21,315 nucleotides of DNA from a virus. Positions 8,670 through 17,296 of the stretch are shown here, piece after piece. The notes under the pieces are model-generated. The model saw only the letters and a list, made by a program, of their open reading frames with translations. It was not told where the DNA came from and made no database searches. Positions within the stretch are counted from its first letter, which is position 1, and the number at the start of each line of letters is the position of its first letter. Both the position numbers and the translations under genes were made by a program. Location: the IMG/VR virus record IMGVR_UViG_3300037493_006804, positions 1 through 21,315 of that record, one strand, 5' to 3'.

Positions 8670-10379
8670 TTAAACCATAGAGTATTGTCCGAAGTCAATC
8701 TTGAAGGTTAAGTACATAGTTTCAGGGTGGAAACCAGCATCAACTAGAGCGAATCTAGACTTAACTGCAATCTTAGGAGCCATAGTTCCTTCAGCGATTG
8801 TTTGTACTGATTCAGCCATTAAGTAAGGCATGAATACAAGACCAGGAGAGTTACCATCACCTTTTCTACCTACAGCAACTCTAGTGTCAGTCCAACCCAT
8901 GTTAGGATCAACATAGATTGAAACACCAGCTACAGAACCGATAGGATACAAAGAACCACCATTCTGATTTACTGTGTTAGAAAGAGGATATGGAGTAAAT
9001 CCTGCGATGTCCTGAATAGCAGAAGCTACTTGACCGTTTACAACGGCGAAGTTAGCAGCTCCTCTTCTACCTCTGATAGCGATAACGTTGGTAGCAGCAA
9101 GGATCTTAGAAAGGATTCTTCTCTGCAAAGTACCACCATTGTCACCGTTCGTTGGAACAGTGTATGCGGTAGTAATAGTAACAGGAGCTCCTCCGTTTTC
9201 ACCAACACCAATATTAACAGCAGCCGAACCTGACGTTGCATTCAAAATGAGGTTCAAGTTAGTTGCGTTAGTATTGTAAGCATTAGAAGCATTGGTAACA
9301 CCAAGTCTAAAGATTCTCTCAAGGATGAGTTTGTTGATTGACTGGGTCAATTCGTTAACGAGTACAGCCTCGATTTGAGCAACTGCATCGATACCAAACT
9401 GCTTAAGGTCTTGAACTTGCTCTCTAGTAACAGCAGCGGCAACTTGGAAAGTTTGAGCCTCAACTGATTTGTTGAAGAGAGAAAGACCCATAAGGTTATC
9501 AACAGTATCTTCACCTTCTTGTCTCAAGTAAGCTTCGTTAGAAGATACATTGTTGAATCCTCCAGATACTGAGGTGTTCTTGGCGAAACCTCTACCAGAG
9601 AAACCAGTGATGTGATCTTCAAGAGCCTTTACTAACTCAGCAGAACCTGAAGAAAGAGAAGCGATCTCTGTTCCAGCACTACCTGTAGAGTTGGCGTAAA
9701 GTGCGCCACCAGATACAGTAGCTGCGATGGTCTTAGAACCAGCAGCACCGTTATCAGCTCTGTAGTTAACAGAAGCATCAGAAGTGTAAGCGTTCACCTT
9801 GAAGATGGGGTATCCATCGATTCTAGAGTTACCTACATAAGTAAGAGTGTAGATAAGTCCGGTTGTGCCTGATCCTGAAGTACTATCTCCTAAGAAAAAT
9901 ACTGTGTTGATGTCAGAGTCGGTAAGATCTTCACCTGTGTTATAGGTAAGAGCTAATTTGATCATCAAAGGAGATTCTACTGAATCGAGTCTACCACCTT
10001 GGTAGATGAAGTCAAGATAAGTAAGAATTCCAAGAGGACCACTCATAGGAACGACGGGAACGAGATCTAAACCTACAGTCTGAGCAGCTACTTGCATAGC
10101 AAGTGGAAGAAGACTGAATGGCTTGTCGCCAGATCCGGTTGGTTGGTTAGAGAATTGAGTGGTTAAGCCTGGGTCACCTGGGAAGGTAACTGCGCCCATA
10201 CCATACACATTCATGTTGGGGTTGAGGTGAACGGTGTTATTTACGTTCTCAGAAAGTTGGTGGAAGTGGCAGTACTTAGACATCCACGACAACTTGTTTC
10301 TATCCGCAACTCCAGTAGCAGATTCGATGATAGGAGCCCATGTCTTCACTACCTCTGTCTCATTGATAAGTTGATTCAT
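8670..10379 (-). CDS. 23: Major capsid protein gp23
   Basis: A 569-residue T4-type major head protein (T4 gp23 is 521). The N-terminus contains VVKTWAPIIESATGVADRNK, the conserved 'W-A-P-I-(I/M)-E...TGV' start of gp23 proteins. The central part has long helices such as SVEAQTFQVAAAVTREQVQD and the region near the end contains GLVFMPYLMAES, KSRFALVDAG and HPETMYLTF. T4 gp23 loses its first 65 residues to the prohead protease at an (L/I)-x-E site; here LSE at 42-44 is the best equivalent. It lies directly after the protease-scaffold gene, as in T4, and is followed by a strong terminator. A 94-nt leader separates it from that gene and holds a promoter candidate. The gene is visibly less A/T-rich than its neighbours, consistent with very high expression. 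Confidence 0.96.
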   Translation of the reverse strand: MNQLINETEVVKTWAPIIESATGVADRNKLSWMSKYCHFHQLSENVNNTVHLNPNMNVYGMGAVTFPGDPGLTTQFSNQPTGSGDKPFSLLPLAMQVAAQTVGLDLVPVVPMSGPLGILTYLDFIYQGGRLDSVESPLMIKLALTYNTGEDLTDSDINTVFFLGDSTSGSGTTGLIYTLTYVGNSRIDGYPIFKVNAYTSDASVNYRADNGAAGSKTIAATVSGGALYANSTGSAGTEIASLSSGSAELVKALEDHITGFSGRGFAKNTSVSGGFNNVSSNEAYLRQEGEDTVDNLMGLSLFNKSVEAQTFQVAAAVTREQVQDLKQFGIDAVAQIEAVLVNELTQSINKLILERIFRLGVTNASNAYNTNATNLNLILNATSGSAAVNIGVGENGGAPVTITTAYTVPTNGDNGGTLQRRILSKILAATNVIAIRGRRGAANFAVVNGQVASAIQDIAGFTPYPLSNTVNQNGGSLYPIGSVAGVSIYVDPNMGWTDTRVAVGRKGDGNSPGLVFMPYLMAESVQTIAEGTMAPKIAVKSRFALVDAGFHPETMYLTFKIDFGQYSMV

Positions 10380-10473: not shown

Positions 10474-12255
10474 TTAGAATTCTCTACCCATTTTTCTTGC
10501 AACAGTAGCTCTGATATGCTCTAGATATTCGTTAGAGGATTCATTTACAGGAGCATCATCAGCTGCAAGTTTACCTTCATTAATTGTTTGAAGATTCAAC
10601 TGAACCGGTCTTAGATCTCTTGTTTGCCAGAAATTGTCAATCTGGTACTGAGTGTTCAGTGGGTAGTAGTTGCTTTGAGCTGAAATTGAACCTTTTTGAG
10701 ATTCATTTAGAGCTTCCCACTGCTTTCTGTATTTTTCTGGCATATTAGTGAAAACGTTAAGCTCGGTGGGTTTGTTAATAAAAGTTGACTCCCAAATCAT
10801 TTCTACATCACGAGATCCGAAATATTTGTTGTCTTTAAAAGCCTCAACTAAAGCAGTTTGTTTATCTTCGCTTAAAGATTGAAACTCGTTTCTCTTGCCC
10901 TCACTAACAAATCTTAAGAAATGTAGCTCTTCTTTCTCCTCAACTGACTTTTTAGCCTTTGCACTTTCAATTAAAGTAGCAAGCTTTTCTTCAACACCTT
11001 TCTTATAAGAAACCGATTCAACAACAGGCTCAGTAGCATCAGCAGTTTCGCTAACTTCTTCGCTAGATCCAAACTTGATTGAAGCACCTTCAACAATCTT
11101 ATTTATGCTTTCAGCAACATACTCTGAGTAATTACCTACGGTTTCCAGGTTCTCCTTTAAGTAATTAGTGTAACCAATAAGCTTATCAGCATTTTCTGCC
11201 AAATACTCTTGGTATCCAATAGATTTGTCGAGGTTCTCTGCTAAATAGTTAGCATATAAGATATTCGTATCAAGGTTCTCTGCCAAATACTCTTGGTATC
11301 CGATAGATTTGTCAAGGTTCTCGGCGATATAATTTGAGAAAGAAATATTCTCGTCTACATTCTCAGCCAAGTAGTTTGAGTACTCGATGCTCTTATTAAG
11401 ATTCTCAGCTACATACTCAGCATATGCTTTAACCTCCCTAGACTCAGTAATAGTAGTATCTAGGTTCTCTGATAAATACTCAACATATTTTTGCAGTTTG
11501 TTGTAGTTTTCTGCAATATGCTCAGTATACTTAACAAGTTTTTCCATTTTAGAAGCATTTTCATTAGAAGATTTCACTGCTTCTTTAATGGAAGAGATTT
11601 CATTTTTTAAATATTTTGAGTACTTATTAAAATCCTCAACAGAAACATTATTTTCCATAGTTAATTCATTGTTTTGATATTTATCTTTGTTATCTTCGTT
11701 TTCGTAAGATTCTTCAAGTTCATAGATGTAAAGATCAGAATCATTAGTGAACCCGTAGGATTCATTTACTCTTTTTAATTCAGCATTCTCAAATCCAGGA
11801 TCGGCAACAAGATCATAAGTGAAAAGCTTTTTAATTGACACCTTTCCGTTCTCATCAACATTACCAGCAGCTCTTGAGCTGATATGAAGAGGAATTCCGT
11901 CCTCGATTAATGCTTTAGCCTGTCTTCCTTTGTCGGTATTTAATAGTCTGATACGACCCATAACCTTCTTAGTTGTAGGATCATACTCTAGTTTTTCAAT
12001 AACGTGAGAAACATTTCCTAAAGAAATATCAAAGCTTTTAGGGTGATCTAATTCGCCCAATAGCTTAGAAGTTTTTACTTTCTCTTGAAGATCTTTAATG
12101 TGAGGAAGTACCTCAGTTTCCTCGTAGATACGATTGTTTTTGTTTTTTACACCAATTTCTGTAAAAACACCTTCGAGAACAACCGAGCCATTCTCAGATT
12201 TGGTATCTAAAGACGAACTTGATCTCTCAATAATGAGCAGATTCTTATCAGACAT
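10474..12255 (-). CDS. Fused prohead protease-scaffold protein (gp21-gp22)
   Basis: A 593-residue protein joining two T4 functions. Residues 1-165 are a gp21-type prohead protease (herpesvirus-protease-like serine fold): GVFTEIGVKNKNNRIY (29-44), GELDHP with candidate catalytic H71, HISSRAAG with candidate nucleophile S126 or S127, and LVADPGFENAEL (149-160). An acidic linker (166-199) leads to a gp22-like scaffold from about M200. Its core (240-385) is a coiled-coil-like array of YxxYLAENLDKSIxY-type units with [L/I/V]-x-E recurring every 14 residues. A mixed C-terminal part (440-593) follows and ends ATVARKMGREF. In T4 the protease and scaffold are separate genes; the protease digests the scaffold during head maturation. 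It lies between gp20 and gp23, and the 51-nt gap to gp20 leaves no room for T4 genes 67 and 68. A TATATAAA element lies 15 nt upstream. Confidence 0.92.
   Translation of the reverse strand: MSDKNLLIIERSSSSLDTKSENGSVVLEGVFTEIGVKNKNNRIYEETEVLPHIKDLQEKVKTSKLLGELDHPKSFDISLGNVSHVIEKLEYDPTTKKVMGRIRLLNTDKGRQAKALIEDGIPLHISSRAAGNVDENGKVSIKKLFTYDLVADPGFENAELKRVNESYGFTNDSDLYIYELEESYENEDNKDKYQNNELTMENNVSVEDFNKYSKYLKNEISSIKEAVKSSNENASKMEKLVKYTEHIAENYNKLQKYVEYLSENLDTTITESREVKAYAEYVAENLNKSIEYSNYLAENVDENISFSNYIAENLDKSIGYQEYLAENLDTNILYANYLAENLDKSIGYQEYLAENADKLIGYTNYLKENLETVGNYSEYVAESINKIVEGASIKFGSSEEVSETADATEPVVESVSYKKGVEEKLATLIESAKAKKSVEEKEELHFLRFVSEGKRNEFQSLSEDKQTALVEAFKDNKYFGSRDVEMIWESTFINKPTELNVFTNMPEKYRKQWEALNESQKGSISAQSNYYPLNTQYQIDNFWQTRDLRPVQLNLQTINEGKLAADDAPVNESSNEYLEHIRATVARKMGREF
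11101..11538 (-). repeat. 42-bp coding repeats encoding a 14-residue scaffold unit
   Basis: This stretch encodes residues 240-385 of the protease-scaffold protein. Cleavage-like tripeptides fall at 247 (IAE), 261 (LSE), 282 (VAE), 296 (LAE), 310 (IAE), 324, 338 and 352 (LAE), 366 (LKE) and 380 (VAE). Spacing is 14 residues throughout except one step of 21, so a heptad register is never broken. The block GYQEYLAEN occurs twice, at 319 and 347. At DNA level the units are degenerate 42-bp tandem copies. Confidence 0.9.
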
Positions 12256-15484: not shown

Positions 15485-17296
15485 TTAAAGAGAAACCTCT
15501 ACTGCTTTCTTTTGAATGGTTCCTTTTTCTTTACCATCAATTGACATAAACGCAATTGCGTCATTTTTACCTCCACTTGCAAATGCTCCGGCATCTACTA
15601 GAATCTTATCACCTTTTTTGTATTTTCCAAAAGGCATTGAAAGGGTTGCTTCGATAAAGCCTTCGTCTTCAGCCTTGCCTTCACTTAAATTAGAAAGTTT
15701 AGAGTAAATCTTCTGTAACTCTTTTTCCTTTTCAATGATTTCACTTTCAATGATTGACATTGCTTCAGAGAGTTCTTTAGAATCACCAACATTTGCGAGT
15801 ACTGCTTTGATCTCACCTTTTTTAGAATTCAACCAAGAAATTGCTTCACTAAGTTCATCCTTTTTGTTTTTTAAAACTGCAACTTCCTTCTGTTCGCCTT
15901 CAAGTTTTTCAAGTAAAATCCCAGAAAGATCAAAGTTAATAAATTCATTTACAAGCTCTTGTGCATTGATTGCACCTTTAGCTTCAACTAATTCGTTTAA
16001 GTTGTTGCCTAATCTATTAACGTAAATTGATTCTTTAAGATTAAAAATATTTACTTTTGATTTATCAAACTTAGATCGAAGGGTAGTAATAAAATCTAAC
16101 TCAAGAATCTTATCAAGATTCTCCAATACAACACAAATGTCATCAAGTTTTGACATTTCATTTACGTGAATAAAAGCCATAGACATCAAATTGTTTCTAA
16201 GCTCTTGGATATTTTTGAACGATAGTTCAGCTCCATCGAGTTTACACTTAGATTCTTTTAAGTCAATCAAAAACTCTTTGTTTCTATTATATGTAGAAAG
16301 AATATTCTCATTTACCTTGAAAATGCTCAAAGATTTTGCAATAGAATAAAGCAGTGAAGATGGATTTTGATCTCTCTCAAGTGTAGATTCGGATAACTTA
16401 TAAAAATATCCATCTAAATAGAAACCGTAGCTTTCATCTTCGTTTAGAACCACTGGACCAAAAGATTTTTCAACAATCGCTTCTGCTGTTTCTAGAATTC
16501 TATTGTTGATTTTTTGAATATTTTGATCAACAGTAGATACTTCTGGAATCCAAGTGTGAGTTTTAAAATTGTCATTAAAACCTTCTAAGATTTGAGATTC
16601 TTCTAAACAGAAAAAAGTTTTAAGAGATTCGTAAACGTTTGTATGAGCTCCACTCATTTTCTTCATTGACATAGAGCTGATTGCCGCCAAAATATTATGA
16701 GCTGCAACGTTTTCTTTTAGATATTGTGAGCTCTCTTTTACAAACTGAGCAACTGTCTCAATGTTAGTAGCAGAAAGTTTAGAAACAATCTCAACACTTG
16801 ATTCAATCAAGAGCTTTTTGTAAGCAAATTTTGCATCAACACTTGCATTTTCGTTTGACTCTAAAACGTGCTGTAAAAAGAAGCTGTCAAACTTTCCTTT
16901 GATTGAAAGCAAAGTATCCGATGCTTGTTTAGAAGAATAGGCAAAGCTTGCCTCCTTTTGAAAATTAGAGACACTTTCTAGCAAGTCTTGTAATTTGCCT
17001 CTGAATTCAAAAATATCTGTATTCATTATATTTTGGTTTTTTTCTGCAACAATTTTGACGGTGTGTAAAACGGGTGTATCAACTGAAACTTTATAAGCTT
17101 CGGATGCGAAACTTGCTCTTTCCTTTGGTACTCCCATACCAACTAAAATAAAGAATACCTGATTTGAAGATTTTCCACTTTTGTAGAGTTGCTCTGTAAT
17201 ATTTTTTAAATTGTTCTTACTATCAACAACATCTTTAATAGATGGAAAATATCCATTCAAATAAACTCCGTAGTCTTCGTTCACAGTATTAGACAT
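15485..17296 (-). CDS. Unknown 603-residue protein with internal repeat, probably virion-associated
   Basis: No family is recognised. It is largely helical with coiled-coil segments (about 440-540, containing KNKKDELSEAI and EKELQKIYSKLSN). Two related segments stand out: VNEDYGVYLNGYFPSI (5-20) and LNEDESYGFYLDGYFYKL (284-301), which divide it into two similar-sized halves. The last 60 residues look like a small beta-barrel (SH3-like): FGKYKKGDKILVDAGAF, then GKEKGTIQKKAVEV. Several L/I-x-E sites are scattered through it. It lies between gp15 and gp55 with its own TATATAAA element 15 nt before the ATG, so late expression and a structural or assembly role are likely. A neck, inner-head or tail-assembly function cannot be told apart from sequence alone. 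Confidence 0.8.
   Translation of the reverse strand: MSNTVNEDYGVYLNGYFPSIKDVVDSKNNLKNITEQLYKSGKSSNQVFFILVGMGVPKERASFASEAYKVSVDTPVLHTVKIVAEKNQNIMNTDIFEFRGKLQDLLESVSNFQKEASFAYSSKQASDTLLSIKGKFDSFFLQHVLESNENASVDAKFAYKKLLIESSVEIVSKLSATNIETVAQFVKESSQYLKENVAAHNILAAISSMSMKKMSGAHTNVYESLKTFFCLEESQILEGFNDNFKTHTWIPEVSTVDQNIQKINNRILETAEAIVEKSFGPVVLNEDESYGFYLDGYFYKLSESTLERDQNPSSLLYSIAKSLSIFKVNENILSTYNRNKEFLIDLKESKCKLDGAELSFKNIQELRNNLMSMAFIHVNEMSKLDDICVVLENLDKILELDFITTLRSKFDKSKVNIFNLKESIYVNRLGNNLNELVEAKGAINAQELVNEFINFDLSGILLEKLEGEQKEVAVLKNKKDELSEAISWLNSKKGEIKAVLANVGDSKELSEAMSIIESEIIEKEKELQKIYSKLSNLSEGKAEDEGFIEATLSMPFGKYKKGDKILVDAGAFASGGKNDAIAFMSIDGKEKGTIQKKAVEVSL

Follow-up and report, generated by a model that had tools for sequence, protein, structure and literature searches.

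The window, by which we mean the whole stretch of DNA analysed, is a 21.3-kb virus fragment with T4-type genes, among them those for portal, capsid protein, tail sheath stabiliser and DNA end protector. Between the T4-type portal and major capsid genes, in the position expected for a gp22-type scaffold beside its protease, lies a single gene in which a prohead protease and a scaffold are fused. After the protease domain come a variable linker, an internal methionine (Met200), an array of ten short units and then a C-terminal part. The principal features are:

8670..10379 (-): major capsid protein (Gp23 family); PF07068, E 7e-31.
10474..12255 (-): fused prohead protease-scaffold gene, 593 aa; PF03420 (Peptidase_S77), E 6e-14; phrog_207 (head maturation protease), residues 9-492.
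11761..12255 (-): protease domain (residues 1-165), matched by profile to 5jbl, a structure of T4 gp21.
11656..11658 (-): Met200, a candidate internal start codon for a separate scaffold protein; conservation of at least 90% in a 36-sequence alignment.
11092..11532 (-): array of ten 14-residue units, residues 242-388; units 2 and 3 are separated by seven additional residues.
10477..11079 (-): C-terminal part of the scaffold (residues 393-593), which holds more putative sites that are not periodic.

The peptidase S77 profile PF03420 scores 52.4 bits against a curated cut-off of 27, and the only solved structure matched by the protease profile is that of T4 gp21 (5jbl, E 2.4e-5). His71 and Ser126 align with two positions that are alanine in 5jbl, a match by alignment position; we take them to be the counterparts of the T4 gp21 catalytic positions His85 and Ser140. 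Both residues are invariant in all 36 sequences of the homologue alignment. The family phrog_207, whose match spans residues 9-492, is named for the protease and not for gp22. These similarities mark the N-terminal part as a prohead protease like T4 gp21, with a cut specificity that we read from motif conservation. A methionine is kept at the junction of protease and scaffold (Met200) in representative sequences although the linker before it varies. A free scaffold starting at Met200, made in excess of the protease as T4 needs, is possible; the T4 prohead contains about 576 copies of gp22 to 72 of gp21 (PMC9026906).

Units of the array share the consensus xYSEY(L/I/V)AENLDKxI. Compared with itself, the region of residues 235-392 gives 55/144 identities at lag 14 and 53/130 at lag 28, while lags that are not multiples of 14 mostly give 2-19 matches. 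This self-alignment makes plain the periodicity that an earlier note had read from the DNA as a ladder of [L/I/V]-x-E tripeptides, and the ladder itself was correctly placed: the tripeptides start at residues 247, 261, 282, 296, 310, 324, 338, 352, 366 and 380, in steps of 14 with one of 21. In that numbering a tripeptide is placed by its first residue; the Glu lies two positions later, from E249 to E382. T4 gp21 cuts after L/I-X-E (PMC9026906), and this strict form, [LI]-x-E, is found at eight of the ten array sites, E284 and E382 being V-A-E. The slash marks the putative cut in each unit:

11509..11511 (-): Glu249, HIAE/N, conserved in 31/36 homologues.
11467..11469 (-): Glu263, YLSE/N, conserved in 36/36.
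11404..11406 (-): Glu284, YVAE/N, conserved in 31/36.
11362..11364 (-): Glu298, YLAE/N, conserved in 12/12 where the unit is present.
11320..11322 (-): Glu312, YIAE/N, conserved in 33/36.
11278..11280 (-): Glu326, YLAE/N, conserved in 36/36.
11236..11238 (-): Glu340, YLAE/N, conserved in 20/21 where the unit is present.
11194..11196 (-): Glu354, YLAE/N, conserved in 35/36.
11152..11154 (-): Glu368, YLKE/N, conserved in 35/36.
11110..11112 (-): Glu382, YVAE/S, conserved in 31/36.

Between units, 160 of 306 codon pairs that encode the same residue differ. With about half of such pairs differing in codon, the units are best viewed as old copies held by selection rather than fresh copies. An AlphaFold2 model built from 36 sequences places the array in long helices (residues 234-265, 273-298 and 304-390) with pLDDT below 50, a result to be expected when one strand of an oligomeric coiled coil is modelled by itself, and the protease and the C-terminal part are folded at fair confidence; the oligomer state is beyond the model's reach. 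The array is probably the coiled-coil body of the scaffold, built by repetition of a single two-heptad unit. A search with the array alone for a cultured relative, in 50,697 phage records, matched only six metagenomic huge-phage records, two of them alike in length and match.

Counting the motif is a poor guide to whether the array is cut. The whole 593-residue protein contains 38 instances of [LIVM]-x-E. Three of these lie within or at the edge of the array but out of register (271, 302 and 389), and none of the three is conserved among homologues. The array has 13 [LIV]xE against 4.9 expected from shuffling. However, the reversed motif reaches a z of 6.4, almost as high as the forward motif, and permuting the column order of the unit places the motif in at least 8 of 10 units in 24% of trials. 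The count is therefore inflated by the repeats, and since the ladder follows from the tandem repeat, periodicity alone is weak evidence of cutting. For these reasons motif counts on the array were dropped as evidence. As judged by sequence comparison, what exceeds chance is the conservation of the motif across homologues, not its spacing. The density of sites in the array is ordinary, the same as in T4 gp22: 13 [LIV]xE in 158 residues, compared to 20 in 269 for gp22 and 26 in 371 for the scaffold of phage 121Q. The scaffold part as a whole has 26 [LIV]xE where 10.6 are expected; the corresponding figures for T4 gp22 are 20 and 10.0.

A longer form of the motif, [LIVM]xE[NSAGT], occurs 9 times in the C-terminal part against 1.6 expected, with 3 in the reversed control. 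T4 gp22, gp68 and gp21 are known protease substrates or neighbours in the prohead core. These proteins, together with the scaffolds of 121Q and AS-zj, served as positive controls, and all are enriched for the longer motif. No such enrichment was found in the window's portal, clamp loader, RNase H and neck proteins, and the same holds for most other proteins of the window. A 603-residue protein without a named family (15485-17296, minus strand) has 19 instances against 5.2 expected. Its homologues are mostly motif-rich as well, typically with z of 4-6.5 and reversed controls mostly of 0-2.6, the exception being an LR756500-like locus with z of about 2. This protein is a candidate second substrate in the prohead core.

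Three positions outside the array, identified by homology, provide an independent view of what the protease may recognize:

12226..12228 (-): Glu10, I-I-E/R, putative activation self-cleavage site; [LIVM]xE in 36/36 aligned homologues.
11761..11763 (-): Glu165, V-N-E/S, putative protease/scaffold cut; [LIVM]xE in 36/36 homologues, followed by S in 31/36.
10248..10250 (-): Glu44 of the capsid protein, QLSE/N, putative propeptide cut; [LIM]xE/[NSG] in 74/74 clusters at 90% identity.

Glu10 is presumably the equivalent of Glu9 of T4 gp21, an N-terminal site of the LIE-9 type, and we take Glu44 of the capsid protein to be the equivalent of Glu65 of T4 gp23, near where gp23 loses 65 residues. T4 gp21 loses nine N-terminal residues (PMC9958956). 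Among homologues, the site in the N-arm of the capsid protein is mostly I/L-N-E, then N or S. Across the three positions P3 is Leu, Ile, Val or Met, and P1' is mostly Asn or Ser at the junction and capsid sites. Together they point to a protease with a taste for (L/I/V)-x-E, and the Y-L-A-E/N of the window's array reads in the style of the junction and capsid sites.

Four IMG/VR scans, with records from a phage collection, yielded 205 loci and 187 complete proteins in 38 clusters at 80% identity, which were weighted equally. In 425 units from the 38 clusters, position 8 is Glu in 400 (94%), the remainder including 11 Asn, 4 Leu, 3 Asp and no Gln, and its entropy (0.51 bits) is the lowest of the 14 columns. 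Position 6, which corresponds to P3, is Leu, Ile or Val in 425/425 units, where the other hydrophobic positions of the unit reach 90% and 80%. Because the profile that finds units includes the motif, the units were searched for again while each column was masked together with the columns beside it; in the register so found Glu8 is still 87.6% Glu and among the two most conserved positions. On a parsimony tree made from the protease domain alone, Glu8 undergoes 4.9 changes per 100 sequence-columns, compared to 16.5 for Glu4, 13.9 for Asp11 and 27.2 for Lys12, and only Tyr2 (3.2) is slower. The pattern of a hydrophobic residue, any residue and Glu is kept in 93.5% of units (cluster-weighted), against 60% for its mirror image, Glu4-x-hydrophobic 6, in the same units. 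Apart from the tyrosines, no polar position of the unit thus appears to be as constrained as the P1 Glu; Tyr2 and Tyr5 are about as conserved, and cutting does not explain them. About a quarter of units have Lys, His or Glu as the P1' residue, compared to Asn or Ser at the other sites, and for this reason some units may be poor substrates.

The claim that each two-heptad unit carries its own putative cut site fits all ten units of the window and is supported by the conservation of the motif across homologues, but it does not extend to every relative. A clade resembling LR756500 keeps the repeats and lacks the Glu in 13/47 units (28%), and its capsid protein keeps the cut site (L-Y-E/N) in the members inspected. 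It thus goes part of the way toward the case that the earlier note had named as telling against cutting, that of homologues that retain the repeats and the protease specificity but lose the motif. It follows that not every unit needs a site; with redundant sites, loss of a Glu would be tolerable. In this clade (loci L081, L169, L171, L177, L180 and L183) the repeats decay, and the Glu is often replaced by Asn, or is lost in the same unit across members (VGLK), so that the clade forms a natural test set.

The best-supported explanation, and one that we consider very probable from the conservation of the motif, is that the array is cut once per unit by the protease encoded in the same gene. The fused protein, possibly along with free scaffold from Met200, would build the prohead core. 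On closure of the shell, the protease would free itself by cuts after Glu10 and Glu165, and would trim the capsid protein after Glu44. In the array it would cut each Y-[LIV]-A-E/N behind the Glu, and the pieces, mostly of 14 residues, would leave the head or remain there as small internal peptides. One point against this reading is that the array is predicted to be helical, at low confidence in this region, and cutting would require the helices to unfold or fray. The earlier note had foreseen uniform peptides of about 14 residues. In a simulated digest that expectation holds for most of the array, although a strict [LI]xE rule also gives one 27-mer and one 21-mer there, and fails for the rest of the scaffold, where the predicted pieces range from 7 to 42 residues. 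It is as if the scaffold were perforated to allow its removal ahead of DNA packing.

A more ambitious proposal, which we regard as speculative and rather unlikely in full, is that a single module, repeated, came to make up the scaffold and serves as the unit of assembly and of destruction alike, with selection holding one site per unit. Because each unit holds a cut site, such an array could lengthen or shorten without losing its removability, and the near-identical 14-residue peptides that it releases may themselves be useful, either kept in the head or injected. T4 keeps a 2.5 kDa fragment of gp22.

The conserved Glu might instead serve the helix bundle, through a salt bridge with Lys12 or a contact with Tyr2 or the shell, with the match to L/I-x-E being incidental and the scaffold being destroyed mainly at the irregular C-terminal sites. 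The tyrosines at positions 2 and 5 indicate that structural constraint alone can conserve positions of the unit, a random column order produces the motif in a sizeable share of trials, as noted above, and the C-terminal part itself has many sites. A charge or a contact, however, should tolerate Asp or Gln, and these account for three and none of the 425 units, while acidic residues elsewhere in the unit do exchange, position 4 accepting Glu, Asp, Asn and Lys and position 11 accepting Asp, Asn and Glu. Such a role also sits poorly with a P3 residue held more strictly than the other hydrophobic positions, and with positive controls such as T4 gp22, which have sites throughout. We therefore judge a purely structural role of the Glu to be improbable, and prefer cutting within each unit.

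That the array is a molecular ruler, its unit number determining how large the core and with it the head becomes, is very hard to credit: the largest genome seen (735 kb) does have the longest array, 13 contiguous or near-contiguous units, with about 11-12 units in genomes of 635-642 kb and 9-12 in most of the window's own group, but Lak phages (550 kb) have zero units, a 606.7-kb putative phage contig (L210, CAJJCY010000001.1) has six, and in a 462-kb genome the array is broken and degenerate. Clades keep a constant number of units (a contiguous run of nine in 68/68, of eleven in 58/61). Among contigs of known genome size, a comparison of unit number with genome size gave no consistent rule, and the suggestion that the number of units tunes core length finds no support. 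In Lak phages, when TAG is read as Gln, the layout is fused in the same way and an acidic linker takes the place of the units. In Prevotella phage Lak-B2 (L086, from 9986 onward), the same protease and a similar-looking C-terminal part flank an acidic linker that looks disordered. The contig CAJJCY010000001.1 (606,700 bases), which holds the scaffold gene, has been assigned to a SAR324 bacterial bin and may be the genome of a huge phage that was put there by mistake.

Removal of T4-type scaffolds uses many scattered cut sites. An array whose units are nearly identical, every one with a single conserved site, offers a clean series of substrates for measuring the cutting rule, and the family supplies natural variants in units without the Glu and in Lak phages without units. 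The motif signature can also lead to additional core proteins in uncultured phages, and once-per-unit cutting is a sharp prediction for head proteomics of huge phages.

In T4, the protease breaks gp22 and gp67 down into multiple fragments, and the head retains some of these (PMC9026906, PMC9958956). The T4 system shares with the window a homologous protease, the cut motif, the neighbourhood of portal, protease/scaffold and capsid protein, and an equal density of sites. It differs in having separate genes 21 and 22 and irregularly spaced sites, with fragments of 3-24 residues, where the window has one fused gene and a 14-residue array. Genomes published earlier carry the same annotation and similar neighbours (portal, protease and capsid protein), and probably belong to the same broad group; in the portion of their paper available to us, the repeats and the cut motif are not described. 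A Rhizobium phage, RHph_TM61 (L207:3872-5383), encodes a fused protein in which a different, longer repeat, around Y-x-x-LG-x-PEE-(L/I), is visible by eye, and other fused scaffolds may have evolved repeats of their own. Phages phiKZ and SPN3US have propeptides (gp175 and gp245) with redundant sites that ensure removal and that are cut after Glu (PMC9026906, PMC10052503). According to the accessible parts of these sources, they resemble the window in having several sites per propeptide and cuts after Glu, and differ in the short motif before the Glu, in a more distant protease and in that no periodic array is reported there. We found no description of the repeats in the open-access library searched. 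Digestion of T4-type scaffolds at many sites is already known, so the regular module is a variant of known behaviour; what is new is that the structural repeat and the putative cut unit coincide.
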